Positions 3,803-49,248 of a stretch of DNA of 64,000 nt are shown piece by piece (the stretch's first letter is position 1; every line of letters starts with the position of its first letter). The stretch spans positions 6,324,001-6,388,000 of the forward strand of contig NC_088300.1 in NCBI RefSeq assembly GCF_032854445.1. The letters are read 5' to 3'. The translations under genes were made by a program, and so were the position numbers. This DNA comes from Liolophura sinensis. Lineage: Eukaryota; Mollusca; Polyplacophora; Chitonida; Chitonidae. The notes below the pieces were generated by a model. That model was not told the origin of the DNA. It made no database searches and saw only the letters and a program-made list of their open reading frames with translations.

Positions 3803-6800
3803 ATGGCTCAAAGTTTCCGGAGTGGTCAGATCCAAGAATTTAGTTCGAAGGCAATCATAGAGGTAACTAGTCAATAGTAAACCTTCATTGGCCTCAATCT
3901 GTTTCTCTCACTTTTTAATCATACGTTTCTTATCGTAATGCGTTTCTGACTTAGTGAGTGATGGCGTTTCGTCTTTCCTCAATTTTTGCACTACAGGCCC
4001 CGATGACCTCCATATGACCGTCCCATCTTCAGTCAGAAACGCATTTCCACTGAACAGCAAATGTGTACACGTGGTTTGCGACGCAATAGTTACACTGTCA
4101 AATTCAGTGCCTGTCAGACATAGAAATTTATTTCTAACCTCCCAAGAGTCTACCAGGACCAGTAAGCTAGATCAAACTCATGGTACTGTTAAAGGCTCAT
4201 GGCCAGATGCCACAGAGAGTTGCTCTTTTCCTCCATCCACAAAATCTTATGGAAGCAGAAAAATTCTTTTTATCACTTTTTTTTCTCACCAACATGTAAA
4301 ACAGTTCTGATTTCTAAGCATATGTAGGTTACATATTTTTTAGTATTTGGGACAAGTAGACTGTGGTTTGGTGCTGTGGGGGTTCATTTGAAAATTTTAC
4401 ATGCAAAATGTCCACCTCTCCATTCATTTAGGCCAGACCTCCTTTTGTCCATTTCTACAAGTACAATGGATCTTCTGTCAGAACGGCACAACTCTACAAT
4501 ACTTGTACATTTATTCTGCTTCTCACTCTAGAATATTGTCCAGTTGCTAATTGTTGTTTGGAGGTGTTGTTTTATTGGACAGACCCCACATTCTCAGTCC
4601 GATTCTTAATTTTTAAGTATGGAATTAGTCCATTCAAAGGGGTGTTTGGTACGGATAATTGAGTCAGGAGATCTCCATTTTCATTGAATGGACTGTTAAT
4701 AAACTTAATGGTAAAGAAGATGATCAAGCCAGGTTATTGACAAAGTGAGACTTTTCATGACACCCTACATAGATTTACATTTCATTCATACTTTGAGGAT
4801 ATACATATCTGCGTTAGTCCGGAAAATAAATCTGATTACCCTTATTCTTAAACCTTTTGATAGAACTGCATAGAGTAAAGCAACTTTTACAGTGGAGATA
4901 AATAAATAAATATGTATATATTACAATTGAATGTCACATGTCCAATTTTGCTATGACTTCAGGACTGGGTTGCACACTACAAGAAGGGTGACTTACTCTC
5001 TGCTCTGAAGAAGCACTGGCGTAAGTATGTGCCTCAGGTGTACTATACCTACAGTAACCCGGCCAAGGAAGAGAGGGTGGCCAGGAAGCTGCTGTTTAAC
5101 CCCATGGAGGTGTTCCTCTGCAGTGGTGACCCAGAGGACATGTTTCAGCAGCTAAAAGGACTGGACCGACCTTCACAGATCTGTGGTCATGTCTTCAAGA
5201 TGGGAGAGCCCACATACTGTTGCAGGTGGGAAACACTAGTACAGAATATCTGAATTACTCTGATTGGTCAACCTTTTCAGATTTTTAATACATAACCCCT
5301 ATGTTGTAGAAAAGCTTTATACAGTATATTAACTAGGTGCAAGACTTCAAGGTAGAAATGTTTTAATGTCTTTCTGTAATATTATTGCAATTGTTGGTGT
5401 GTCTTTAGTACAGAATAGCAAATTATACAAAGCAATGGAACGAACATCCTGAGACTTTACTCAGCAACTGTTTTTGGTTTATTAAAGTTTAGATACACAG
5501 TGTTTGAGCGTCACCTTTGGCACAGATTTTGGTTTTGTTCAAGTGAGGTTACAACCAGAACATATATGTACATGTACCAATGAATTTGTTTGTTAGGGTT
5601 TATGCTCATGCTGAGCTGTTGCTTTTCTCCTCTCTTTATCAGGGACTGTGCCAGTGACCCTACATGTGTTCTGTGCATCGAATGTTTTCAAAAAAGTGCT
5701 CACAGAAAACATAGGTATAGGGTAAGTTTGCACACCTGCAACCATGAAAACTCACTTACCTTCAAGATGTTCAAAGCTGAACCTTCAAGGAATCAACATT
5801 TTTTCCTTGTTAAGCTCAGTGGACCAGATGGTAGAGGAAAAATCTGTTAAAAATCAAGTTAAATGATGCAATGATCATGTTTGTTTAAGGAGATGTTTGT
5901 ATTTCTGTTGGGGATATTATTTGGTTGTTCTGGTTCAGTGTAATTCACTTTGAGTAGGATTGATTTCCCTTATGTTATTTAAACAGATGGATTTTGCTGG
6001 TTCATTTATGCTAGACAATGATTTAATACAATTAAGACAGTTTCTCAGGAGATATGTTTGTCACCTAGGTGATATTATTGGAGAAGCACTGAAGGGATAA
6101 TGCAGTGATACCATTAGAGAGACCAAATATTAGACACCCTGGAAACAATTGATGTTTGTTTGTTGGGAGGGAAAAGATCAGCAGGGTAAATTGATAACTA
6201 TATGTCAAAGTTGGTGACAGTGCATATTTCAGGGTCTCAGAATCTCCGTTACAACACATGGGGCCTTGTACATGTAACAGCTCTACAGGACACAAATTTG
6301 ATGATACTGCCAAGTTTACAGTATTGTACTCGGACATATTCCACTCCTAACACCTACCCCTTCATACATGTGGGTATATCTAAAACATCAAAACTTATAC
6401 TCCACAGAAAAAGCGATTCTATGCACCGATGTGCATACCACTATCTAATTCCAGAGTAACATTATATTGTTACTGCTTATACCAGCGTATGGAAATTATA
6501 AAGCTATAACTATACCTGGAATAACCTGTACCTCCCTTACTCTGTTTTTATGCATTCTGGCCCATTTGAATAAGTTATTAAAACATCACATTCTCCATGA
6601 GTTGTTCAAAGGGGTGTGCAAAAAGTTTTTTTTTTTTTTTTGTAAAAACTTTCACCTCACATGTAGCTAGTACACTGTAAAACTTCAGACTACGGTCACC
6701 TTCAGTGTGATAAATACACCATATAGATGTGCATGTTGCTTTGTTAAGATGTGGAGGTGTGTTGTTTTCAGATGAACACCTCTGGGGGAGGAGGGTACTG

Positions 6801-9800
6801 TGACTGTGGAGACACAGAAGCCTGGAAAACAGAGCCCTTCTGTGAGACACACAAACAAGGCCTAGCCCAGGAGGAACCAGTGGTATGTACACACAGTACC
6901 TGGGGCACCATATATACACTTAGCCAGATGGATTAATATGGACCTGTTTCACAAAGTCGTCATAGCATAGTATGCATGTTGGTTAAACTAACATGGCGAC
7001 CAGTACCAGAGAAATATAGCCATGGTAGTTTTATGCTTAAACCCCTAAAAGCACCTGTCTAAAATTTCAGAGTGATTCGGCCAATGAATAGCATAGCAGT
7101 ATTTTCAGGATGGCTGACAAGGTGATTTAGTTCTCATTTAATTGAAAAACTATTATGACGGGCTTGCTTAAATTTGTCATGTCCTCTCAGAACCCTATTG
7201 AAGCCCTACCTGATGATTTGGTGGACAGAGCAAGTACATTGTTTATGTCAGCCATGCAGTATGCTGTGGAACTTCTCACCTGGGAACAGCATGACAGCTT
7301 ACCTGTAGGGCTCCAACCTGAGGGAGAACTACCCAACACCTACGTCACCATGCTGTTCAATGATGAGGTTCACACATATGAACAGGTATGTTATCTTGGC
7401 ACAGGTTCTCCTATGATGGAAGTGGTTCTTGTTATAAATGTGTTACAGCATGCAGTGCCCATTAAAAAATTCATATCTGCCACACAGTGTATAAAGTTGC
7501 GTGCCTCCACTTTTTATCAGATTCAAGAAAAATATCTGTGAAAATCTTGAAATATTTGTAATGTTATCATTACTTAGTTTACTTCAGTGATGTGCATTTT
7601 TTTTTTTTTCGAAATACTTAATACTGCGCTCCTAGGGGTCCCTGAGCAGTTCACCTGCCATAACATGACAGCGATGTGTCTGGCCATGCTGGCTATTTCC
7701 CTGATCATTTTTGTGTTATTCCTTTCCTGGTTTCATCTTCTGACAGGTGATCAACACTTTGATAGTAGCTGTGAACTGTAGTCAGAAAGAAGCCACAGAC
7801 TTTGCCACAATAGTTGATAGAGAGGTATGTCAGCTTTTTGTTTTTTCACTTTTGCCTGATGTGTTAAAACATTTGATCGTGAAAATCATACATAAAGTAT
7901 TAAATAGTATGAAAACAAGACCAGCAGTATGACACAATATATCAGTATTCGTAATTCCTGTGAGGTGACACTTATGTGAAGCTGGACCGTGAGCCATTGT
8001 TATCATAGTGAGCTGGGACGGAGTATTTGATGTCAATTAAATGACGCCAAGATTCTGCATCTACTCGGAGCCTTGTCCTTTGTATTGCCACTCAATTTGG
8101 TTGTGTTACTCTTGATTCATCATGTTCAAATCATTCAAAGCTCAGTTTTGAACACATGAAGATCTCATTTCTTTAGGGACGAAGCTGTGTGAGGACTGGT
8201 CAGTTTGAAGATTGTGAGAAAGCTAGAAGTGTTATTGAGGTAAGTAGCAGTTTCTTATTGGGCTTGTGTTTAAGTTTATATCAAGTTTGTCTCTGTAACT
8301 TTCCTCTCATAGTGATATACAATGGTGATAGTAATAAAAAAATTACTCTCTGCTCTGCCATAAATAGTATTAGAGATGTCCCCTCGACAGAGTTTTCTTC
8401 ACGTATAAATAAAATGCCCTTAACCTGGATATACATGTACATGAAACACATTTCATCACCATTGAAATCCATTTTAATTGGTACTAGTTGAACAAGTGCA
8501 GTTTGAAATTGGGTTGGGTGGGGGGATGCTAGCGTTATACTTTATAATGTGGTCCATTTTCTGCATTAACACAGCTGTTTTTGTATTATCTGCGTTAACA
8601 GAAAAACACATCTCGTCATGGCAGTAAACCCCTTAGAGTCCATGTCATGCACACCACAGTGGTAGCTCATCAGCAATTTGCCCTCAAATTGATCCCCTGG
8701 TTACAGTCTGTCATATCCCGGTCAGGTAAGTCATTCTTTCACACCTCACTTTTGGTAGCAGATATCTGGCATATCAACTTGATGAGTTTTTAGTTGATGT
8801 TCATGATGATGTTCAGCCTCCCACCATGATGTTGGTCGCCATTGTATGAATGAAATATTCTTGAGTACGACATAAAATTCCAATCAAATAAGTAAATACA
8901 TGAATATGTTCCTTAGTTTTGCCAAGATCTTGTTTGGAGACAGTTGTGAATTGCATTCCTGTTCCCAAGTCTCGAGATACAGTAAATGACATACAGTTTC
9001 GCCCATCGGTTACTGTCGCATGGGCTAAGTTAGCAACAAGATGACGATGATGAAGTTGGTGATTAGCCCCACCAGTATCTGTCACCAATGCCCTGTATAA
9101 TGTGAATGAAGTATGTCATTATAGGCGCATATTTTGTTTCATTACTTTCAGAACTGTACTGAAATTGCGGAAGAGTTATCTTTCCCACATTTTGAAATCG
9201 TATGTCTGCATGCATATTAACAGATATTTGACATGCCACTGCATATCTGTAAAGGTACTGAGTGGTCGTGCCCACGCTTATTAATCTCCAGAGAGTTTTC
9301 TCCCAAATTCCCTTTCATTATAAAATGGCAATCATAAAACAATCAAGGTGCACCTTTTGTCAAGTAAACCTTTATGTACTAAATTCATCATGATTAAAAC
9401 TGAGGAAAACATGAACAGTTGGTGGCAGGAGCATATACTGACTGCACAGTGAAGCTTGTTTATTACATTTGGGAACTGTCCTTATAATCCCCTGGCCACC
9501 GTTGATGCTCTCCCGCAGCGCCCAGTCAGCAAGAACTACAATCAACACAATGAATCATGGGATACACTTTTCAAGCCTAAGGGCAAAACTTGAAGTCATT
9601 TACCATAGCTCCGATATATATGTAGCAGAACATGTGTGTTTGTTGTCAGAAACATTTTTGTGTTGTGTATTTGATCTTTAGCTTAAATTGGATCACAATG
9701 TTGTAATGAAATGTTCAGACAGAGTTGATTATGTGTGCCATGTGTGTTGTATTACAGATGGTTTGCGGCGGTTGTTTTGTATCCTCACCATGAAACCCCA

Positions 9801-12800
9801 GCAGAATGAGATGGGTCTGTCATTGATGGAGAAAATCCTGTTAGCAGACACCCAGCTCTGGAAAGGTAACAGCCATGTAACAATCACGGTTGTAATGACA
9901 TTTTGGTGACTTGTGGATGTTTCTATTGAAGTGTGATTAATTGTTGTTTACTGTTATCTGGTAGTTGACTTGAAATTATCTTTAGGGTGTTGCAAAGTAT
10001 CATATGTTTAAGTAAATGGTTTTGTCTGCTATTTTCAGTTGCCCGTGTACAGAGCCACCAACTGTTTATGTCAGGGTAAGTATTCCAGGTTAGTGGGCTG
10101 ATGTACCCTGTTCAATACATCTCTGTCCAAAACTTTTAAGAAAGAGTAGATTGCAAATAAAAAGAAAGGTAATGTAGTAATTGTTTAATAAGAATACATT
10201 GTCACATTGTAGGCTCTCGTAGGATACTTAGTAGTTTTTCTGTGTTGAGATACATGTAAGCCTCTAAAAAGTATAACCTCTTCATGTGTGAACGGGACCA
10301 ACTGAAGTTTCAAAACTGCATTTCAAACAGTGCTGTGTAAAGGACACATGTGACACATCAACATTATATCTGCTCTCTGTATGAAATTGTGATGAACTAT
10401 TTAACACTGTATTAAAGTAAACTTTCTTTTCCATGTGTTTTAGGGTCTTGCTCGACCAGGAATGCAAAAAGCAGTTTGCAGCTATGTTCACTAAGGTACA
10501 TACAAAAAGTATATTGTATCATATATACAACATATATCAGTGTTTACTTTGTTTACCTGTACATATAACACTAACATTAATAATGTACGTGACAACCACT
10601 ATTCATCTCTCCGTTTCCTCTTCTCACTTTTATTGGTATGTATATATGTGAAGAAGCCAAGGTAAAAGGTTTTCAGTATTATATGGTATTAACTCAGCAT
10701 TGCATGCCATCAGAAGTATATAAATAGAGAGAGGTATGCAGTTCACATGTCTGCACTCCCCCCAGTCTATCTGTCGAGGGTACTGAAAATTTGATGCTGA
10801 AAATGCAGATACTGGGGAGAGTGACTGGCCCCTGGAGTGATGCTAGTAAAACTAGATGTCATGATACTCAGGAATATTTTGTGAGGACCCCTTATTTTTC
10901 ACTCCTAGGGGTCAGTGCAAAGCCATATTCAATTCATGATTCCTGTCAAATAGTTTGCCAAATGATTAAGTTGGTGCATGTTGCAGAGTGGAATGTTGTA
11001 ATTTGTCAGCTCGACTGTAGGGCATGAATGATGAGAGAGAACAAAACACAGTGTTTCACTCTGCAACATGCAATAATTCTTTCATGTATGTATTGAATGA
11101 CTGGCCATGATCTTAATTGGGATAGCATGTGGATTTCGCTTTGCTTTATACACCAGACAGAACAGGCTGAAGGAGACAGTGCTCAGAATGAATTTCAAGG
11201 GACTCATCTCATGTCATAAATGTGATGTAGCACAGTTTAGCATGGTAAATAAAATTGCATATGTCACAGGTTGCAACATCATGAGTTGCTGAACCTTAAG
11301 TGACATTGGGGGGTGGGGTGCCTCATGGCCAAAATGGTTAGCATGCCAGCCCTGCGCAATGGCCCAGGAGCCTCTCACTAATGGGGTTGCTGTGAGTTCC
11401 AAATCCATCCCATGCTGGCTTCCTCTCCAGACGTAATTCGTCGTGGGAAGGTTTCCCCCTGGCTTTGCTAGGTTTCCTCCTACCATACTGCTGGCCGTTG
11501 TCATATAAGTGAAATATTTTTGAGTACTGCGTAAAACACCAATCAGATAAATGAATAAATCAACCAGTTTTATGCAATTTTAAAAAATAGTTTTATCCAA
11601 TGAGGGAAAGAAAACTTACATGTGGTATAATATTTGTATCTAATGCATTCAGTTGTGGTGGTTTTGGATAGGTGTTTTCTAAAATTGATAAGTATGAAAC
11701 TCTAAGGGAAATCGTGAACAGTTGTCACACACTCCTGAGATCCACTCCTCGTTCATGAAAGTCTGACTTACATGTAGGGTTTAAATTCTGCTATATACAT
11801 TCTATGAACAACATCTGTGAAACTTACAGTCAAAACTACTGTGCTTGATATTGATTAAGATATTTTAATTTAATTCTTGTTTGTGATTTTCTTACGCATT
11901 TTGGCCATTTTTCAGTAATGTACGTTTTAAATTGTCATTGTTGAATTTGAGATATGTGTACACCCATTGTCTGATTCTTCAAGCTGAAATCAAATTTCTG
12001 TAGTTGCAATTAGAAAATAATTAAGATCATTGTAAATCTATTACAAAGTTTATGCAACACGTGAAATTTATAATACATGTATTAATGTGAAAGATGTTTG
12101 TTTTGTTGCCATTACAAGCAACTGTCAATGCATGCAAATTAAACATTTCTACCTACATATATACTAATATTTTTTTTTAAATTAACACAAATGAGGAATC
12201 AGTAGAAACAACACTGCCTTGGGTTTTTTCTTCAGTGGTTCCCGCAGATGCAGCGCGATTTCTGTGAAGACGATCATGATCAGGAAGTGTCAGTCACATC
12301 ACTGTCTGTTCAAATCTTTACCGTACCCAGTTTGGTAGGTTACAAACCCTTCTGGTTGACCATGGTGGGGTTTGGGTGGGGCCAACACCACATGTTAGGG
12401 ATGTTACACGGATGTCCACTGAAATAAAAAAAATAAAGTTTATTTGAAACTTTGAATTTTTAGAATGAAATCAAGCTGATTTTGTGTTTTCCTTACAGTT
12501 ACAGCGTCTGAAAAACTTTAGGAATTACTTAAATTCCTTGTATCAACTCCTGGCATGTTGATTGGCATAAGGGCGCAGGGTTGGGATGTAGAATTTCATT
12601 TTACATGTAATGTTAGCTGACTGCCCTCTACTTCTGTTCTTGTTTTGTAGCAATATGCCACTCTCATGAAGGACTTTATTCAAGACGACCACTATCGTTC
12701 CGTCTCGATTACTTCAATATCTGTCCAAATTTTTACAGTTCCAACTTTGGTAGGTCCCTCTGTCTTAAAAAGGTTTTCTCTGGCTGCTTGCATTACTCTG

Positions 12801-15800
12801 AAGTTATCAACTCATGTTGTATTTTTACACACAACTGACCTTGACATTTCAACACTTCGACAAGTCAGCTGCATTTCCTCTACCTGACTTTTGCTGATAT
12901 TTTTTTTTTCTTTTTGACTTTTGTTTCAGCATATTTTGTTGAATCTGTATATGTTTGATCTTCATTTAGGGTGAAATATTAAGTTTCAAGCAATTTGTTT
13001 ACTTATTTATATATGTTATTGTAAATTCAAAATATAAAATAACCCAGGGCTGCTATTCATGTCAACTGAACATGACTTCACACACATGAAGACTTGAAGG
13101 GTCTAATACATGTATACTATTAACCATACATAGTTAAATATGTTTGTAACAGTAAATGAGGATAGGTAGGTACAGCACTATATAATTGATGACCCAGACT
13201 GGCACTCTTACTAATTTCCTCTAGCCATGTTGAGGAGGAAATACATGTAATAATAGTATTTACCACTGTTCCTGCCTTCTGTTACAATTGGTGGGAATTG
13301 CTGACGAAAAACAACACCTGACATGGAGACTATTACTGAGCTATCATTACCTGTACTGTAATTCCTCAACGTTCTGACATGTGAAAGAGTAACTTTCTGT
13401 GCGAGTTATGCACCACTTAGTATGATTTTGGAAACAAAATTACAACGATTGTGTTGGCCAATTTCCAAATTTAACAAAAAATGAAAATTTATCAGTCTGC
13501 ACATAATATCCTCAGAAAGTGTTGGAATAAACATCTTGCAAACCTGCGAAAAAGGTTGTGGAATTACAATATACTGTGCTCAATGACTGTGCAAGCAGGG
13601 TTGTGTCATGAATGTATAGTCATTTTAGATTCTTTCTTGAGAGTGAAGAGATGCAAATTTACGTATACTTTTTGTGAATGATATATTAATGTGTATGTAG
13701 TATGTTTTGTTCACAACGTTCCCTTTAGTTTCACCCTAAAGTTAAGCATGAGAAACCCACTACCGTTTAGGACTTTTGAAGAAGAGATATAATTTGTGCC
13801 CAACTTAGAGTGTATACATGGAATTTCTTGTTTGGTCCTCTGCGTGTGTCTTTCTTTGTTTACTGGATTGGTATTATTTCCCTAAACCGTACACCATAAT
13901 CAAGCATTTCTCACTTCCCTGGTGTTCAGATTGGATGAGATTTATTGGTTGAGAAGATTAACCAGATTTTTAGGTAACCACTGCACCTTTCTACACCTCT
14001 GGCAGATTTGTTGACGATAAAATCCTATACAGATGATCACTTCACAGCTGGATTTAAACACATGGTCTATTCAGTCAGGAGCCAGTAGCCTTTAAGGAGA
14101 ATCCACCAGATCACATGATGATCTACACTCAAAAGACGTTTTTCATTTTTGTAATGTCTACCAGGTGGCCCCCTAAATATGTAATAATTGGTCGAATTGA
14201 ATTAGTTGCTTTTAAGAGCCTTATGTTGATATATTAGTCTAGTTGTAGGTCATTGACATCTTGTATTGTTACACTTCGTATTTCATCTTTTCTACAGGCA
14301 CGCATGTTGATAGAAGAGCATGATTTGATGACTGTGATTATTAAAGCCTTCCTTGAGCACTGTGAAGGCAAACTGAGTAAGTACTGCTTTACTCTATTAT
14401 GAAATTCAGATCATGCTCTGAGCATGTGTTTGTGATGTGGTTAACTGCTTTTTCTCAATAATATATACACGTACTTGTTTGACCCTTAACATGCATCAGT
14501 GTGTTGCTGAATTCAATTGCTTACACACAAGCCAGTACAGAAGGGTATTGCCTTGTCAGTTGATTCATCATAAAAATGATGTGTTATTTGTGAATTTTTC
14601 TTTTTATTCCATGTCAACAGAGGATGGTCGTCTGGTGTTTGATCGCAATGAGCGGAATCAAGCATTTAAGAGGGCCTGGTATATGCTATATGATCTCAAG
14701 TAAGTTATGTCTTATATAAGTAGGGGTCAGTCGGTTAGCACGCTAGTGCAGCATAATGACCCAGGAGCCTCTCACCAATGCGGTCGCTGTGAGTTCAAGT
14801 CCAGCTCATGCTGGCTTCCTCTCCGGCCGTAAGTGGGAAGGTCTGTCAGCAACATGCGGATGGTCGTGGGTTTCCCCCGGGCTGTGTCCGGTTTCCACCC
14901 ACCATAATGCTGGCCGCCGTCGTATATGTGAAATATTCTTGAGTACGGCGTAAAACACCAATCAAATAAATAAAATAAATAAATCTTATATAAGTTTTGT
15001 CATGGTTTTGGAATAGGCCTCAAGCCTGTCACCAGAGTAAGTCAGCCTTAGTTTGAATAGGCCTCAATCCTATCACCTGATTAAGTCACTCGTAGTTTGA
15101 TAATTGGCCTCAGTCCTCCCCTCTGACTAAGTCGGCCTTAGTTTGAATAGGCCTCAATCCTCTCGCCTGAGTAAGTCAGCCTTAGTTGGAATTTGCGTTA
15201 ATCTTCTTCCCTGAGTAAGTCAACCTTAGTTGGAATAGGCCTCAATCCTCTCACTAGAGTGAGTCAGTCTAAGTTGGAATTGGCCTCAATCCTCTCACCA
15301 GAGTAAGTCAGTCTAAGTTGGAATTGGCCTCAATCCTCTCACCAGAGTATGTCAGTCTAAGTTGGAATTGGCCTCAATCCTGTCACCAGAGTATGTCAGT
15401 CTAAGTTGGAATTGGCCTCAATCCTCTTCCCTGAGTAAGTCAGCCTTAGTTGGAATTGGCCTCAATCCTCCCCTCTGAGTAAGTCAGCCTTAGTTGGAAT
15501 TGGCCTCAATCCTCTCACCTGAGTAAGTCAACCTTAGTTGGAATTGGCCTCAATCCTCTCACCTGAGTATGTCAGCCTGAGTTGGAATTGGCCTCAATCC
15601 TCTCACCAGAGTGAGTCAGTCTAAGTTGGAATTGGCCTCAGTCCTCTTCCCTGAGTAAGTCAGCCTGAGTTGGAATTGGCCTCAATCCTCTCACCTGAGT
15701 AAGTTAGTCTAGGTTGGAATTTGCGTTAATCCTCTTACCTGAGTATGTCAGCCTTAGTTGGAATTGGCCTCAATCTTCCCCTCTGAGTAAGTCAACCTTA

Positions 15801-18800
15801 GTTGGAATAGGCCTCAGTCCTCTCACCTGAGTAAGTCAGCCTTAGTTGAAATTGGCCTCAATCCTCTCACCTGAGTAAGTCAGCCTTAGTTGGAATTGGC
15901 CTCAATCCTCTCACCTGAGTAAGTCAGCCTTAGTTGGAATTTGCGTTAATCCTCTTCCCTGAGTAAGTCAACCTTAGTTGGAATAGGCCTCAATTTTCTC
16001 ACCTGAGTAAGTCCGTATAAGTTGGAATTGGCCTCAGTTCTCCCCTCTGAGTAAGTCAGCCTTAGTTGGAATAGGCCTCAATCCTCCCCTCTGAGTAAGT
16101 CAGCCTTAGCTGGAATTTGCATTAATCCTCTTCCCTGAGTAAGTCAGCCTTAGTTTGAATTGGCCTCAATCCTCTCACCTGAGTAAGTCAGCTTTAGTTG
16201 GAATTGGCCTCAATCCTCTCACCTGAGTAAGTCAGCCTAAGTTGGAATTGGAGTCAATCCTCTCACCAGAGTAAGTCAGTCTAAGTTGGAATTGGCCTCA
16301 ATCCTCTCACCTGAGTATGTCAGCCTTAGTTGGAATTGGCCTCAATCCTCTCACCTGAGTGTTTCAGTCTAAGTTGGAATTGGCCTCAATAACCTCACCC
16401 GAGTAAGTCAGCCTTAGTTGAAATTGGCCTTAGTCCTCTCACCTGAGTAAGTCAGTCTAAGTTGGAATTGGCCTCAATCCTCTCACCTGAGTAAGTCAAC
16501 CTTAGTTGGAATTGGCCTCAATCCTCCCCTCTGAGTAAGTCAGCCTGAGTTGGAATTGGCCTCAATCCTCTCACCTGAGTATGTCAGCCTGAGTTGGAAT
16601 TGGCCTCAATCCTCTCAGCTGAGTAAGTCAGCCTGAGTTGGAATTGGCCTCAATCCTCTCACCTGAGTAAGTCAACCTTAGTTGGAATTGGCCTCAATCC
16701 TCTCACCTGAGTATGTTAGTCTAAGTTGGAATTGGCCTCAATCCTCTCACCTGAGTAAGTCAGTCTAAGTTGGAATTGGCCTCAATCCTCTCACCTGAGT
16801 ATGTCATAGCTCAATATACTTCAGTGCTATCACATGAATCAGTCACTAAGTAGCTGTCACTTGAGTAATAAAGTTCGCCTTAGCTGAGCAGTCTTTAATG
16901 CTCTCAGCTGAGTATACAAGACATATGAAGTATAAATGTATGTGCCTAGATCAGGAATTAAGTGAATAGCTTTTGCCTTCAACCAGTGTCGTGTGCATAC
17001 TCTCTTTATGTCACAAGGGATAGTGTACCAGTCACTTGCCAGGATTGATCGTTTTACCCCTTTCAAGCATAAAACCAACTGCCATCATATAAGAGAAATA
17101 TTCTCGAGATTGGTGGTAGCAAACAGTGAAATAAACGATGTGCCACTCCATTAAAGCTGAGGTGCTTCATTTGTTGTAGGTATACTTTATCCTGCCGCCC
17201 ATCCGCTGAGGAGTGGACCCCCAAACTCAGGTCAAACTTCCTCAACGGATTCAATAGTCTACTGGAACTTCTCAAAGCTATGCAGGTAAAAACATATGTC
17301 ATATCTAAACTGTATAATGTCTGAATGAAATGATGTGTGGCAAAAAGGGTTTAAATAAAGTTTAGCATGTTTGATATTTGGAAACCTGTCTGAAATTTGA
17401 TGAATAATTGATTGGTCTCATGTATGTGTCTCTATATGTTGATGGTAGATATATGCTGAGACGTGCGTGCTGGGTGTTGGGCCACATATATTTGGTCAGG
17501 TTCATTCTAACAACTTTTGGCAATACTTACATTAGATTATCAGTGTTGGATCTAGACATCTACACTTAGCTTGGAATCAGCCAAATGTTGTGGATTTATA
17601 ATATAAAGCTTTATGTTGAGATGTGTGCTATAAATGTGTAACCTATGGGTGTTGTAGGGCATGGACGCTGTGACCAGACAGACGGGGCAGCACCTGGTGT
17701 TTGAGCCCGAGTGGGAGAATGCCTTCAACTTACAGCTGAAACTCAGGGATAACCTGGCATTGGTGCTGGACTGGTGTTCATCTGATGTAAGATAAGCTGC
17801 CGTCTTTTAACAGTCTTCATCACCTCCAAGAATTGAATAATCATTCAAAGTCATTGTTGTATGTTGTATTAAATGTACATTGCTTGCAATACCATGTTTT
17901 TTCTTATAATATCTGTTAAAATGTTAGATTTAACATTGATCTCCACTATCAATACCTTTTTTAATTTACTCTGTGTAAATATAGTACAGTGTATTAAGCA
18001 GAAATGTGGCTGAGGAAAGTAGTTCTGTTTCCATGGCATTTTTTTGTTTCATTTGTGCCGTGCCTGTGATCATAGTGTGTTTGTTACAAATTATTAATTA
18101 TAAAATAGTTGATATAAATTCAGTGGCTTAGACACTGAAATGTGTTGTTGGCATTGATGGTGTTGTAGAAAGAGGTGCTGATATCTGCATTCCGGGCCAC
18201 CATGAAGACTCTACAGTCCTGTAAGGAGAAACCAGAACTTCTCAAGAAGGAAAAAGTTACCAGTATGTTGTTTTCCTCTGTTCCTCACCATTTTTATGCC
18301 CTCCTTATATAGGGAGTAAAGCTTTACTTATGTGTAGTGTATATCCATCTTGGGGGCCTCCGTGGCTCAGTCGGTTAGCGCGCTAGCACAGCGTAATGAC
18401 CCGGGAGCCTCTCACCAATGCGGTCGCTGTGAGTTCAAGTCCAGATCATGCTGGCTTCCTCTCCGGCCGTAAGTGGGAAGGTCTGCCAGCAACCTGCGGA
18501 TGGTCGTGGGTTTCCCCCGGGCTGTGCCCGGTTTCCACCCACCATAATGCTGGCCGCCGTCGTATAAGTGAAATATTCTTGAGTACGGCGTAAAACACCA
18601 ATCAAATAAATAAATAAAATAAATATATCCATCTTCATAATTTGGCTTAGAGACCGTGTAAAGTTGTTAAAAGGTTGAGGAATTTGACTACTTCAAATAT
18701 AAAATGTCTCCAGATTGAGTCTACCTTTATTTACCTGAGTTATTGTCCGCAGCTTTACCTGAGTATTTCATCTGGTGAGGAGGCAGGTATGATGCTTTCC

Positions 18801-33800: not shown

Positions 33801-36800
33801 GTGTACATGGAGACTTTTAAACCAGGACTTCTCTCATTAAACCTTTCCTTTCTGTATGATTTTGAAGTAGTCAAAAGCACACTGTAGCTCTAAGCGTGTT
33901 ACTTGGATCCAACAGTGCAGGAGTTTGGGTGGCATTGCTTCTTTGCGTTTTGATCCCTCTATTTTCTTACACTATGTTCTTTTTGTCAACATCAAACTCA
34001 ATTTTGTCCTTTCAGTGGTCAGTTCTCAGAAGGAATGAAAGACATGCTGAAGAAATTTACCAGGGATGTATACTGTGTAAGTTTTCTGGGTTACAACCCA
34101 GTTTATTCCTCTCAAGGAAAAACTTCATAAGATTTAAGATCTGTCAAATGCCTGGTAAAGAGCTTTCAAGGTAATTTTTTGTTTATTCATGACTTATTTC
34201 CTCTTTGTTTAATTGACAGTGAGATGATACACGTACATGTCATATACATGTATTCTACCATCTGTCAGGGAAGCCCTGTAGAAAATATAGTGGGAAACAT
34301 TAAGTGTTTTTTTTTTTATAATCTTTGCTGGTGAATCCAGTAAGCAGTAGTGAAACAAAAATGAGAGTGAATGCAAAGTTTTTATTTAAGGGTAATTTTG
34401 TGTAGACAAGACGGTTGGTTGTATTGTTGCAGGTGGGTCTTTCTGTGCACCCAGATGACGAGAATGTACGTGTACCAGTACTCACCTGGAACACCTGTGC
34501 TTATACTCTGCTGACTGTAGGTCAGTAGCCCTCAGCCATGTCTATGTCGGCTACATTTGGATTAAGTGTCAATCAGATGAGAATTGGGATAACTCAGACA
34601 AAGTGTTCTATTAGGATTTGTTAGTAATTTACTTCTTTGGTTAAAAAAAATACAGGATTAAGCTGTCATACTATGAGTTTTCATATTTGCCAATATTCAT
34701 TCATTTGGACAACTGTGGACAATAACAGAAGATAAATTGTTACCTTTGCTTTTTTATTTTTTTTAACTGTTACTGTGATGCTTAAGCTTTTGGTCAAAAT
34801 TTAATTTTTTGTGATTTAGAGTCACTTTAGTGCTTGTAATCACTGGAAAATTTGCATACATGTTGAATCAGCTTTTCTTTCACCTGTATTTTAGAGCAGT
34901 GTTTGCGTGAGGAACAAAAGCCAGTATTTGCTGCTCTCTCCTCCCGACAAACCGACTGTCTGGACTCGCTGGTGAAAGTCTCGGCTGTTGTCAGTCAGAT
35001 TATCTCCCCTGATATGATCAAACGCCACTGTGTACGTCTGTTGAGTGGTAAGTAGTTAATAATAGTAGTTGTAATCTTTGTGCTACATGACTGTAACAGA
35101 AACATTTTGAGCCATACTTTGACAAAGTGATACAAATTTACGCTCTGAACGTTTGTTTTCATTAAATTGTCTGTCTTCATGGGTAGATTGATTTTCTGAG
35201 CATGGCAGAGCAGCTCCTTGCACCTACCACCATGTAATTGGTAAGCTTGGTAGGCATGACCCTCTAGTGGTGTCTGTGAAGGACCATTTGCCAGAGGGCA
35301 GGAGATTAGATGGTTACTATACTTTTGTGTAAGATGTGGTGTTTGTGTTGGGGCAGCTTTAATCCCTGACAGTCTGGGGAAGAAGAGGAAGGAGAGTCAG
35401 TGTTTACTGGAGATGGACCTGTTCAGCTACCTGACCGTGCTGACCATGACTCTACCCAGCCTCCATAGCGACGCCCAACTCTTCTCCATCAACACCATCC
35501 CTATGGGTGGCCTGAATGACCTGCACGCTCTACATCTCACCCTAACTGCACACCTGGTACAGATCATACTGCAGCATCAGCCAACAGGTAAGACAGACCC
35601 CTCTTGCCCACATCATAAATTTGTCCTTAGATTGCCATTGACTTCTCACTTCTGACAATAAGAACCTGGCCTGTGCTCTCATCTGAAGGTTTATTGGCCT
35701 TCCAAAGCAGTCATGGGTTACTTTGAAGATTATAAATAGTTCACAGGTAATGGGAAATTTGTGGACCTTTCATTTTTTTTCATTTTTGGTAATATTTATT
35801 AGAATATCAACTGATGAACATTGATGGATTGGTGCATTGAACAGGCTAGTACCAATTTATATTGAGTTTCTGACACTGAAACAACTCTCTCAAGACCAGT
35901 GGAAATACTAGCTCATTGAGACAAGTTCATGCCTCACTGTTTGCAATTTGCTTGTTGTGGCAGAAGCTCGATATTAATAGATGTATTCCTTGACAGTGAT
36001 GGCAGTTTGAGGTTATCATTATTTGAATGTGTATGTACAGAGGGAGACAGCATGGAAACTGAGAGTGACCCCCAGGCTGAGGCTTTCGCCCAAGTCTACT
36101 GTAAACTGAGGTCTCAGGCAGGGTGAGTACTGTGTTAAGTATGGTGACCAGGTCACTGGAGGAATCTCCAGTGTGGGTGGGTGTGTGAAAGTAGTTCATT
36201 GTACAATCTTTCTAAATGACTTGTGTTCTCATTTTTCAATTGGTCTGCAGTCCCTGTCAAGCAGGCAAATCTACTGCAGCAGGCAACTCTAACAGTTGTA
36301 TTGACTGATTTAAATGCATCCGTATAAGTGTGTTGGCTGTCCTAATCAAAAGTAGCAATTGTTACATGGTAAGTCCTGTCACTGCCTTGTGTCAGAATAA
36401 TGAAGCGTTCCATGGCTTGACTACAACAACCAGCTGTTCACAGTGACAGTACATTACTGATTTTCATCACCTCAGCTCTTAGTGGTGTTCTACACAGAAA
36501 CTAGAACTTTTGAAAGCATTTGATGTTTTTGCCATTGTGGAAACATTAGAGTGTGTTTTGTGTTTGTTTCAGTTTGCCATGTGTGGAGGACTTGATTCCG
36601 TGGCAGGTTTTTCACTATGTGAAGGAAGCTTGCTTGCCCTTCCTGCGCTCAGCCGCGCTCCTCTTCCACTTCCTCACGGGTGTCCCTCCACCGCAGGAGC
36701 TGATGGGTAAGTGTGTCGCCAGGTGAAAGAGGTTTGCTTGCCCTTCCTGAGTTCAGCCACGCTCTCTTCCACTTCCTTACGGGTGTCCCTCCCCCTCAGG

Positions 36801-39800
36801 TACTGATGGGTAAGTGTGTCGCCAGATGAAGGAGGCTTGCTTGCCCTTCCTGCACTCAGCCATGCTCTTCTTCCACTTCCTCACGGGTGTCCCTTCCTCT
36901 CAGGTGCTGATGGGTAAGTATGTCGCCAGATGAAGGAGGCTTACTTGCCCTTCCTGCGCTCGGCCGCACTCCTCTTCCACTTCCTCACGGGTGTCCCTCC
37001 ACCGCAGGAGCTGATGGGTAAGTGTGTTGCCAGATGAAACAGGCTTGCTTTCCCTTCCTGTGCTCAGCCACACTCCTCTTCCACTTCCCCACGGGTGTCC
37101 TTCCCCCTCGGGTGCTGATGGGTAAGTGTGTCGCCAGATGAAGGAGGCTTGCTTGCCCTTCCTGCGCTCAGCCGTGCTCTTCTTCCACTTCCTCACGGGT
37201 GTCCCTTCCCCTCAGGAGCTGATGGGTAAGTGTGTCGCCAGATGAAGGAGGCTTGCTTGCCCTACCTGCGCTTAGCCACGCATCCCTTCCCCTCAGGAAC
37301 TGATGGGTAAGTGTGTCGCCAGATGAAGGTTTGCTTGCCCTTCCTGAGCTCAGCGGTGCTCCTCTTCCACTTCCTCAAGGGTGCTTCTCCCACTTAGGAG
37401 CTGATGGGTAAGTGTTTCACCATGTGAAGGAGGCTAGCTTGCCTTTCCTGCGCTCCTCTTCCACTTCCTCTCGAGTGTCCCTCCTGTGTAGCGGATGGGT
37501 AAGTATTTCACCATGTGAAGGAGGTGAGTTTGCCTTTTCTGCATTTAGCCTCTCTCCACTGTCTACCTTTGATGTGATGACAGTGTGACCTGTGTTATGA
37601 TAATTCTCCACTGTCTGCCTCTGTTATGATGACAGTGTGACCTGTGTACCTGTGTTATAATAACTCTCCACTGTCTACCTTTGATGTCATGACAGTGTGG
37701 TTTGTGTACCTGTGGTGTGATAACTCTCGACTGTCTGCCTTTGATCTGATGATAGTGTGATCTGTGTATCTTCAGAGCCATGCAGTGTATCTCAGGAACA
37801 GGTGACAATCTGTGGTTACCTGTCTCTCCCCACATCTTTACTGAGTCTCTTCACTGAGCAAGGGGATGTGATCACCTCACTTATATCAAGGTAGGAAGTA
37901 TTTCACATATACTTTTTTGCCACGTCACACACCAAACAGATGATGAGTTATCACTTGATGAATGAGATATTCATGAAGCCCAGCTCAGTTGTAAAAAGGC
38001 TGAAAAGATAGATGTATATGTATATTATGCAGTAGGTCTATAGGTAATGCCCACAACACAAAGAAAAGTTACACCATATATTATACATGAGTAACTTCAT
38101 TTGATTTATCATAAATTTACATACAGCTTGAAACATGGAATTTTTCCAAAAGAAAATGTTTACTGACAAAAACATTTGAGATATTTGTTGGATCATCATG
38201 AACAGGCAGTGTGTCATGTATATTGTGCTAAATCTTCATGATCTTGAAGATTTGTTTTATTTCTGCTGGTATAGTCTGACTTGTGTCTGACACTGATCTT
38301 ATTTTCACCTTTACGTCTAGATGGTGTAGCAGCCCTGTGTTGAAGGCTTATATGGCAAAGAATGGGAAGGACATGCCCAGGTATCCGTTACCTGTCAAAC
38401 AGCTCGTCCCCCTGCCACATGATTACAGTGACCTAATTAATCAGGTGTCCACCTTCACGTAAGTACTGGATGTCCTACCACCGCTCCTTGGAAGAGGAGT
38501 CAACAGGCTCTTCAAATCTCTCTCAGAACATTCACAATGCAGACAGATTCCACTATTAACTTGCATAGATGGTTCGTATATAAATGCATACCAGAATATT
38601 TTCAGGCAGGTGATACAATGCGATTTATTTCTTTAGTACAGCATTGATCAAAAGTCAAAAATAAATACTTAACCCTTTACTGAACTGCGTGCATAGTGTT
38701 AAACTGGTACACATAGTGTTAAACTGGTACATAGAGTGTTAAACTGGTACATAGAGTGTTAAACTGGATATAAAACAGTGAAAGTACCAGGTGAGGTCAA
38801 CTAATGATACCTGAGAAAAAATGTAGTATCTGGTATATGACATGGCAGACGCTGTGGTAGCTCAAGGTGAGTTTGTGTTGTAGGTGCCCCAAATCTGAGG
38901 GAGATGACAGCCGTGCCCCAACCATGTGCCTGGTGTGTGGTCAGATGTTGTGCTCTCAGAGCTACTGCTGTCAGACCGAGCTACACGGGAGCACTGTTGG
39001 AGCGGCTACCGCCCACACGCATTCCTGCGGGCTCGGCACAGGCATTTTCCTCAGGTCAGATCACATCTGAAGAATTATCATGTTTTGTATAATTCCACAA
39101 CCATTTTACCCATAAAACAAAATAATACCTCTAAATAAAATTTTACTTCTGAATAACGCTGCTAACATTTCAATATCTTTAAATATGAATATAGTAATGA
39201 TCAATCTGCAGATGATGAAATCACTGTATGAACTGAGGGTGTTTATTTTTGACAGAGTAAGGGAATGTCAGATTCTGCTGCTGTTTGGGAAGACTAAGGG
39301 TTGTTTCTTCCCTTCTCCATACCTGGATGATTATGGAGAAACAGACCAGGGGCTCAGGTAAATATCACTACTACACCCTCGTACTTCAGCTGTTCTTCAC
39401 ATGTACATTTGGTGTATGTGTACATGTACCGGTACCAAATAACTACTTCAGCTGAGAGAGATACTAGTCTTAATTTTTTAAAAATGTTTCTGTATATATA
39501 TTATAGTGTACATGTCTCTTTCTATTTAATGAGTGTAACTATTAAAAGTGTGATAAAAACCAAGATTTTTGGTAATTTTGTGTAGATCTTGTGTTACATG
39601 GCATGAACCTTGTGTTCTTTCATGTGTTCAATTCTATCAAGACTGAAAACGATAACTTTATTGTATGAGGTCCTCTTAAGATGTGTGAAAAACATGTTGA
39701 TACTGTGTAAATTGGTAATGCTTTAGGAAAGGTATTTTGAAAGGTATCTCAACTGTTGTGTCAGGTCCCAAATGCTCATGTATGTGAAATAACAACGTGA

Positions 39801-46445: not shown

Positions 46446-49248
46446 GAAGGCCTATATAAAGAAAGAGATAAAATAAGGTCTAAGAAATTCGGCATTTGAC
46501 CATACCCGGGGAGTTTTAAGAAACAAAATCATTCAGCGCAGACTCAATCAAATTTGTGTTATTGTTTTAAAATAGCCCAAATAATTACCTTTCACAAAAA
46601 TATCAGCAGTTAGCGAGATCTTATACCAGGGTCTGCCAAACTGACCCTCATGATTTTCCTCTGGGCAAGTCTCGTTGATTGCATCTTGACCATGCTCGAA
46701 CTAAAGGATGCAAGGCGAGAAGGAATCCATGAAAGGCGTATTCTCTGGGTTCCTTACATCAGAGACACAGTGATAAATAAGGATTTCCGCAGACCACACA
46801 AACATATGAGAGATCCATCGTGCGACTACTTCACCTACACCAGGCACGGAAAGAGACACAGTGGACACTTTGACACCAACGCTATTGAATATTATTCGGA
46901 CACATTTTTTAATATAAATAAAGAAATCATCTCGCGGCTGTATCATAAATATTACTTTTGCTCCAGATCAAAGGCATAATCCATGAGAGATTTGCTTCTT
47001 GGGGCTTGCCTTTAGTTTCTCATAGGAACAACATTTATGAGCTAGCCAAAGCTCATTCTGGGATATCCTGTATTGATCTGTCCTGACCCAACCAATATTT
47101 GGCGATTTTTATGCCTTTTTTCTTGCAGAGGCTCATACCAGACCTGAAGTTCCGACCAATGGGAATCAGGTTTCCAGCCGGAGGGCCGACCTCCTCCTGA
47201 AGCTCTGGCGACAGCGTCTCCAACGCTCAGATACCACTACCTCATCTTCTCCTACACCCACCAGCGACTCAGGGCAAATCACAACATACGGGGACCCAGG
47301 CAGCCATTTCGCAGAGACCACTGTGTTACCATCTTCAGATGATCCTGTACAGAGTATCACCAGTAACACGACGAATCAAGAATCAAAAACGTCAAACGAA
47401 TCTGAAACTAGCCATAAAGCAAATGACACCAACAGCACTTATATAAATGAGATGTTAAAAGCAGTCCCTTCAGAACTGAATCAAAGTTTTGTTGGAAGTT
47501 CAGGAAAATCTTTACTGTATGCACTGACTTCCAACCTAACTCAGAATCAGATTCCCTGGGACGGGGCCTCAAATGTGGGCCTTAGTGACAATTCCACGTT
47601 TTTAAACCAATCGAAAGGAAATGACACAGAAAACTTCTGGGAAACATCCGAATTTAGTGCATCAGTCGAAAGTGTTATAAACAATATTACCACAAATTTA
47701 ACGGACTGGTTAGACAAAGACAACAGAGTAACACACGGTGAACATAGATCCAACATTACCTGTGTTAATTCTTCAGAAGGTGCTTCAGACAACCTTTTGG
47801 ATTCTACACAGAGTTCGACGACAAAAGATCAAGTTTCGGATTTCTCTGATATAGTGATACTTTCGGATTTCTCGCCAAATGTAACAACAGAAAATCAGGT
47901 TTCAAACATGGGCCAAAACTTTACAAAAGAGGGAACGTTAGAGGAAAATGGACCACAGAACGTGACGTCATACATGAAAGACGAATTGTTACAAGAGAAT
48001 GACACCTTGGCCTCAAACAAAGATACTACTTCTGATGTGCCGACCTCAGACAAGTATACTGCTTCTGGTGTGTCGACCCCAGACAAATACACTTCTTCTG
48101 ATGTGCCGACCTCCGACAAATACACTTCTTCTGATGTGCCGACCTCAGACAAATACACTCCTTCTGATGTGCCGACCTCAGACAAATATACTCCTTCTGA
48201 TGTGTCGATCTCAGACAGATATACTCCTTCTGATGTGTCGACCTCAGACAAATATACTCCGTCTGATGTGCCGACCTCAGACAAATATACTCCTTCTGAT
48301 GTGCCGACCTTAGACAAATATACTCCTTCTGATGTGTCGACCTCAGAGAAATATACTTCGTCTGATGTGCCGACCTCAGAGAAATATACTCCTTCTAATG
48401 TGTCGATCTCAGACAAATATACTCCTTCTGATGTGTCGACCTCAGAGAAATATACTTCGTCTGATGTGCCGACCTCAGAGAAATATACTCCTTCTGATGT
48501 GCCGACCTTAGACAAATATACTCCTTCTGATGTGTCGACCTCAGAGAAATATACTTCGTCTAATGTGTCAACCTCAGAGAAATATACTCCTTCTGATGTG
48601 CCGACCTCAGACAAATATACTCCTTCTGATGTGCCGACCTCAGAGAAATATACTCCTTCTGATGTACCGACCTTAGACAAATATACTCCTTCTGATGTGT
48701 CGACCTCGGAGAAATATACTTCGTCTGATGTGCCGACCTCAGACATCAAGTCCAGCGTAAAACATGTACCATCTGAACCAAATCCTCTGTTAACAAATTG
48801 CCAACCAGAAGCAAACCACGAGGCGCCTATATCCCAAAGCCAATCTCCAACCATACCCAATGAACACACAACTATTAACTCAAAAGAAGAAATATTGACT
48901 TCTCTACCGACATCATCCAAAGAAGCTAAATTTACTCACACGTCAACGGCACTCACACAGCTCACATCTCAGGAAGCCACACCTGTAGCTGTTACAACCA
49001 CTCCCAAACAAACCACATCGGGCTATATGTATCGCACAACAGAGTTCGACCCATTGACCAATCGCGGTGGTCCATTTTTGAGAAAGCCCAACGCTTTTGA
49101 CTTTTTAATGATGGGACAAATAGCAACTGCTCAAAGAAATGAAAAACAACGTGAGTTTCGAGAAAGTAACTACGAAGCCTCTGCTCAAATCTGTGGTTTG
49201 CTCAACAAAAAGTTCTGCAGATTGTCCATTGGAGGCAGGTGCTGTTAG
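46011..49248 (+). CDS. Secreted Ser/Thr/Asn-rich repeat protein, mucin- or matrix-like
   Basis: Two coding exons, 46011-46086 and 47129-49248, join in phase to 731 residues. The ATG sits in GCCACCATGA, a textbook Kozak context. Exon 1 encodes a signal peptide: basic MIVRRCCVRG, then hydrophobic LLLSVVCGLIVLLQ, with likely cleavage after TEA. The mature protein starts with a short basic stretch (SSRRADLLLKLWRQRLQRSD). It continues with a Ser/Thr/Asn-rich region holding many N-x-S/T glycosylation sequons, then twenty-two 11-residue repeats (DKYTPSDVPTS type), a Pro/Thr-rich spacer and a tail with four Cys ending CRLSIGGRCC. This fits a heavily glycosylated extracellular protein such as a mucin or shell/tube matrix protein. 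No known family was recognised. Exon 2 may be spliced at 49151 to a second C-terminus. Confidence 0.8.
46215..46325 (-). mobile_element. Possible tRNA-derived SINE fragment (third family)
   Basis: On the minus strand, AGGGTTTGATCTCCC resembles a pol III B box and is followed by a GC-rich body. No A box or tail was found, so this is tentative. Confidence 0.3.
46388..46444. repeat. (TA)n microsatellite in intron 1 of the secreted protein gene
   Basis: About 28 TA units, starting after GCATGCA. Confidence 0.97.
46650..46979 (+). CDS. Unrecognised 109-codon ORF inside the secreted-protein intron
   Basis: ATG at 46650 opens 109 codons ending TAA. Composition is mixed and protein-like (HERRILWVPYIRDTVINKDF, then SCDYFTYTRHGKRHSGHFDT), not repeat-driven. 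No family was recognised. No clear acceptor/donor pair joins it to the flanking exons in frame. It may be a decayed transposon fragment, an alternative exon or chance. Confidence 0.22.
   Translation: MIFLWASLVDCILTMLELKDARREGIHERRILWVPYIRDTVINKDFRRPHKHMRDPSCDYFTYTRHGKRHSGHFDTNAIEYYSDTFFNINKEIISRLYHKYYFCSRSKA
48016..48741 (+). repeat. 33-bp coding minisatellite, 22 in-frame copies
   Basis: Each 33-nt unit encodes 11 residues of the type (D/E)KYT(P/S)SDV(P/S)T(S/L). Length is strictly conserved over 22 units, with no frame-breaking indel. A higher-order block recurs three times: a unit ending PTL, a DKYT unit ending STS, then an EKYTSS unit. Each unit offers several Ser/Thr sites for O-glycosylation or phosphorylation and one Tyr. 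Confidence 0.95.

Follow-up and report, generated by a model that had tools for sequence, protein, structure and literature searches.

A tandem duplicated pair of putatively exclusive exons in a UBR1/UBR2-type N-recognin gene of Liolophura sinensis

Tandem duplicated or mutually exclusive homologous exons form a described class (Martinez-Gomez et al., 2022, PMC9741552; Abascal et al., 2015, PMC4465641; Hatje et al., 2017, PMC5740500). The pair reported here resembles its members in adjacency, in equal length and phase, in occupying one slot of the protein and in keeping most of the conserved residues, and differs from the surveyed exclusive exons in being known from sequence alone. In the available portion of PMC9741552, 236 human tandem duplicated exon substitution events are counted; 21 of the events analyzed by proteomics are of bilaterian age, and where a family has events in human as well as in fly, common ancestry was evident for 7 of 42 human events. 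Paralogues that each keep one exon are described in the same portion, these being the FYN pair set against FGR, SRC, YES1 and FRK, and CACNA1F/CACNA1S. The exclusive exons 4a and 4b of OGDH are separated by a short intron, as are the two exons here (excerpted text of PMC7969005). Removal of double inclusion by a frameshift is a feature of some exclusive exons and is absent from the present pair.

Vertebrate UBR2 presumably carries alternative exons at the site considered here, a point also raised in an earlier, sequence-only reading of this DNA. A human UBR2 splice event labelled ME (UBR2|127390|ME) is listed in a cancer survey, the available part of which gives no exon position (PMC7227031); the suggestion is therefore matched as to the event and not as to its site. 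Further UBR2 variants comprise an early-termination isoform (PMC11285346), the isoform UBR2-202, which is up in young adult cortex (PMC12397408), and an entry among the top skipped-exon events (PMC13053314); the exons concerned are not located in the available parts of these three sources. No description of a UBR2 exon pair was present among the matches listed for open-licence PubMed Central, and the string 'ubr' occurred 0 times in the main text of each of PMC9741552, PMC4465641 and PMC5740500.

The exon pair and its gene

The DNA analyzed, referred to as the window, was a stretch of 64,000 nt from the Liolophura sinensis assembly GCF_032854445.1 (contig NC_088300.1, positions 6,324,001-6,388,000, forward strand). 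Positions given below are those of the window, exons 11, 12a, 12b and 13 carry the numbers of the sequence-only reading, and the gene lies on the plus strand. Upstream coding exons for a UBR box and a ClpS-like domain were located within the outer limits 4957-9865, with borders placed for some of the exons. An approximate partial protein was used for domain and human comparisons. It matched the UBR box (PF02207, 76.8 bits) followed by the ClpS-like domain (PF02617, 67.1 bits) in Pfam, and scored 453.5 bits against human UBR2 and 341.6 bits against human UBR1. The 3′ exons of the gene aligned with both human proteins to approximately residue 1536 of UBR2.

Judged by these matches, the gene is a UBR1/UBR2-type N-recognin. 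It had been called UBR2 previously; UBR1/UBR2-type is the better label. A query with 12b against the 609-Mb genome (E ≤ 10) returned 12b and 12a only, and a query with 12a plus exon 13 returned these two copies, exon 13 and a single match elsewhere (another contig, E = 5.6). These matches place exon 12 at this locus and do not prove a single gene in an assembly with gaps. The UBR box exceeded the family cut-off at four further places in the genome beyond that of the window. The ClpS family, when searched for across the genome, gave 0 matches because the search reads exon by exon.

The upstream constant exon 11 (10444-10495) ends in phase 0 with a lysine; in human UBR2 and UBR1 the corresponding position runs directly into the exon-12 segment. 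Exon 12a (12236-12334) and exon 12b (12651-12749) were both placed from translation, borders and human alignment, and are separated by an intron (12335-12650) that has no second match in the genome at E ≤ 0.001. The downstream constant exon 13 (14298-14376) starts in phase 0 and follows the exon-12 segment without a gap in both human proteins. Each of 12a and 12b is 99 nt (33 codons) long, begins and ends in phase 0 and has AG/GT borders. The acceptors read CAG before 12a and TAG before 12b, and the donor TTG|GTAGGT is common to both.

The two copies are identical at 18/33 residues and 56/99 bases. In tblastn searches of the window they matched each other at E = 3e-10, the next-best matches having E = 0.03 with the 12a query and 1.1 with the 12b query. 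The BLOSUM62 score of the pair was 100, against a maximum of 37 among 100,000 shuffles, and on these sequence scores the similarity is beyond chance. Coordinates, borders and search score thus agree with the original description of two neighboring exons, homologous and alike in length and phase, that lie 316 nt apart. No third copy of exon 12 was found in the window. When 24 exon pieces of the UBR gene region were compared with the window, 12a/12b was the only diverged pair, and another of the pieces has a young tandem array. The earlier reading had confined the divergence to the first third of the segment. Divergence is indeed early, and it extends over the first half, with 5/17 residues identical at positions 1-17 and 13/16 at positions 18-33.

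In human UBR2 (PDB 9wbv) and UBR1 (9wbw), residues 395-427 constitute a single 33-residue exon-12 segment. The upstream lysine and a downstream ARxLI are continuous with it, with no gap at either border, so that one exon-12 copy fits, and the claim that only one copy fits the family length was upheld. The two human proteins compared here are all the relatives of the segment found in the PDB; the PDB profile search returned these two and one unrelated weak match (E = 1.2), and yeast Ubr1 was not among its matches for the exon-12 region. The human proteins share family and segment with the window gene and differ from it in that each deposited chain has one form, whereas the window gene has two.

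Inclusion of both copies in one longer protein would be permitted by the reading frame, as 11-12a-12b-13 reads through in frame and without a stop. There is no room for a second segment in human UBR1 or UBR2, and double inclusion would duplicate the segment mid-way through a conserved stretch; we regard it as very unlikely.

At third codon positions 11/33 bases are equal between 12a and 12b, compared with 45/66 at positions 1 and 2 (Fisher p = 0.001, one-sided). The dN was 0.40, and dS was not computable because of saturation. Among the 20 columns that are identical between human UBR1 and UBR2, 12a keeps 15 and 12b keeps 16. The excess of equal residues over equal third positions, an argument that draws on 33 codons of one genome, points to an old duplication after which both protein sequences stayed under constraint. 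That one of the copies is dying or unused is accordingly very unlikely, since each has an open frame and canonical borders and retains most of the human-invariant residues at saturated silent divergence.

Mutually exclusive splicing of 12a and 12b is the best explanation of this arrangement, and we infer that one copy enters each mRNA. It is very probable that the two exons are a functional tandem duplicated pair used one copy per mRNA, which would give two ligases differing only in the 33-residue segment. On the features read here, 12a and 12b are classed as a new case within the known class of tandem duplicated substitutable exons.

Each mRNA would take either 12a or 12b, producing two full-length ligases whose variable segment would follow the ClpS-like domain by about 94 residues. 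The earlier description of the pair as adjoining the substrate-binding domain is loose, as the Pfam ClpS match ends that far ahead of exon 12. The more constant second half of the segment may keep the fold. The variable first half is probably a helix end and a loop around an invariant DDH, and its replacement may alter a contact surface, thereby tuning substrate or partner binding rather than catalysis.

Origin of the pair

Origin was examined with four 33-residue segments, namely 12a, 12b, human UBR1 and human UBR2. The tree was limited to these because the PDB search and wider scans yielded few relatives; scans of collections of genome contigs and of viral contigs with a four-sequence profile gave 36 and 41 pattern matches, none of which was confirmed. 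Two readings, each possible and each given somewhat less than an even chance, were weighed. In the first, the pair is ancestral to bilaterians, and the vertebrate paralogues became fixed by subfunctionalisation for 12a (UBR2) and 12b (UBR1), with UBR2 perhaps keeping both. In the second, the duplication is specific to the lineage of this animal, and any vertebrate UBR2 pair is convergent.

Identities out of 33 were 21 for 12a-UBR2, 21 for 12b-UBR1, 20 for UBR1-UBR2, 19 for 12b-UBR2, 18 for 12a-12b and 17 for 12a-UBR1. Each copy is therefore nearest to a different human protein, and 12a resembles 12b no more than either copy resembles a human protein. This hints that the pair is older than the split from vertebrates and that UBR2 and UBR1 later divided it between them. 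The same low identity of 12a to 12b, together with saturated silent positions, counts against a lineage-specific duplication, although faster change after duplication could still account for it. S22 and I27, which are common to 12a and 12b where both human proteins have A22 and F/M27, favor a lineage-specific origin, and convergent tandem exon duplication is described as common among orthologous genes in the available portion of PMC9741552. The ME event listed for human UBR2 in the accessible part of PMC7227031 fits an ancestral pair.

Over 372 flank columns the window protein agreed far more often with UBR2 (199) than with UBR1 (158), and the closeness of 12b to UBR1 thus runs against the background. 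This reversal speaks for an ancestral pair. One as strong was obtained in 27/340 overlapping flank windows and in 2.4% of random 33-column samples. Bootstrapping of sites recovered the pairing of 12a with UBR2 and 12b with UBR1 in 16160/20000 replicates when identities were summed, in favor of the ancestral pair, and in only 9617/20000 when BLOSUM62 scores were used, which weakens it. In maximum-likelihood tests (LG, JTT+G4 and LG+F) all three topologies were kept, with a RELL value of 0.58-0.65 for the best and AU values of 0.21-0.41 for the others, again to the detriment of the ancestral reading. Just two columns (R/K and V/I) group fully as an ancient pairing would, and one (S22/A22) groups as a lineage-specific duplication would.

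In a simple simulation of lineage-specific duplication with an internal branch of 0.1-0.4, the observed excess was reached in 0 to 12% of runs, which supports an ancestral pair. With the duplication placed near the split (zero internal branch) it was reached in 7-18% of runs, which tells against it.

The segment tree proposed in the sequence-only reading was thus run on four sequences; it retained every topology, and the identities lean toward an ancient origin. Taking the identities with the undecided tree tests, an old pair is favored, and one-to-one orthology with the human forms is only a hint. A shared ancient origin of 12a/12b and the vertebrate forms is plausible but unproven. The fuller proposal is that the founding UBR1/UBR2 gene had an exon switch of bilaterian age, which this animal has kept and which vertebrates have split, with the 12a form in UBR2 and the 12b form in UBR1; on the present comparison it is rather unlikely. 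Subfunctionalisation of the FYN type would be the model for a 12a-like UBR2 and a 12b-like UBR1; as far as the available portion of PMC9741552 shows, the FYN-type cases come from annotated exons of many genes, whereas the UBR case comes from four 33-residue segments.

The design of the gene is known, and any novelty would lie in the age of the pair. Exon pairs common to protostomes and vertebrates are few, to judge from the 21 bilaterian-age events (PMC9741552, portion available). If the pair is ancient, animals have long made two forms of the main Arg/N-degron ligase by splicing, and the difference between UBR1 and UBR2 would be an inherited isoform difference, testable by a swap of the 33-residue segment. 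In that case the difference between the human N-recognins at this site would go back to an ancestral splicing choice of which each received one half. A lineage-specific duplication would make the pair an ordinary, tidy case. The interest of the pair hinges on its identity with the presumed vertebrate UBR2 pair.

Control of exon choice

Skipping of both copies (11-13) is in frame, as is double inclusion, so a frameshift with NMD cannot enforce the choice and was ruled out as the enforcer of exclusion. Steric exclusion through a branch point crowding the 12a donor was not supported when nearby words were examined. A branch-point-like word, CTGAC, is normally placed in the intron between the exons, its A lying approximately 31 nt before 12b; OGDH exons 4a/4b, in contrast, have distant branch points (excerpted text of PMC7969005). 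A simple branch-point pattern had no match in the last 50 nt before 12a. In a crude count against the donor consensus, the donors of 12a, 12b, 11 and 13 each agreed at 6/9 bases. By this count the donors of the pair are as strong as those of the constant exons, and give no obvious sequence sign of regulation.

Competing RNA-pairing elements had also been suggested, and no convincing case was obtained. The strongest pairing was between the upstream intron at 11306-11390 and the intron between the copies at 12543-12631, at -69.1 kcal/mol (shuffles, n = 30: -52.6 ± 3.6, minimum -60.9 kcal/mol). No rival partner for this pairing was seen, and its upstream arm overlaps a dispersed repeat. Ten further partial copies of this repeat (11306-11570, perhaps a SINE) are spread over the two strands of the window. 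Pairing of the intron between the exons with the downstream intron (-54.2) did not go beyond shuffles (-47.5 ± 3.9, minimum -56.7), and the same intron folded alone was slightly more stable than its shuffles (-81.3 compared with -74.8 ± 4.8).

Eight splicing-factor motifs were counted over 10496-14297, exons included, and compared with shuffles. GCATG (9 compared with 3.9 ± 1.9) and a GGT-rich word (5 compared with 0.5 ± 0.8) were above expectation. TGCATG (3 compared with 1.9), YGCY, TCTT, YCAY and ACTAAY were not above shuffles over this interval, and TGTGT was below them (6 compared with 11.2). Some of the counted motifs fall within a dispersed repeat, and the GCATG and GGT-rich excess is taken as a lead only.

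With frameshift and NMD excluded, the most likely means of choice would, in our opinion, be tissue-specific splicing factors that act through differences between the acceptors and between the introns. Given the unconvincing pairing, equal donors and ordinary branch-point placing, the mechanism is left as presumed trans-acting control.

Other features of the window

A 44-nt tandem repeat of approximately 41 copies, with short open segments, occupies positions 15008-16806 in an intron of the UBR gene. At 36574-37560, a UBR-gene exon that matches human UBR2 residues 1501-1536 and Pfam PRT6_C runs directly into a tandem array. The 104-nt unit of this array consists of the 3′ part of the exon plus the donor GTAAGTGTGTCGCC, with shifting frames; 6.5 copies were detected at 36620-37290 (TRF), followed by more decayed ones. 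The array looks like a young minisatellite born from the exon.

Downstream of the UBR gene, a 33-nt tandem repeat of 22 copies was located at 48011-48745, with one frame open and encoding the 11-residue unit SDKYTPSDVPT. On the minus strand at 204-458, an open segment matched NUDIX (PF00293, 28.6 bits) and was attributed to a neighboring gene.
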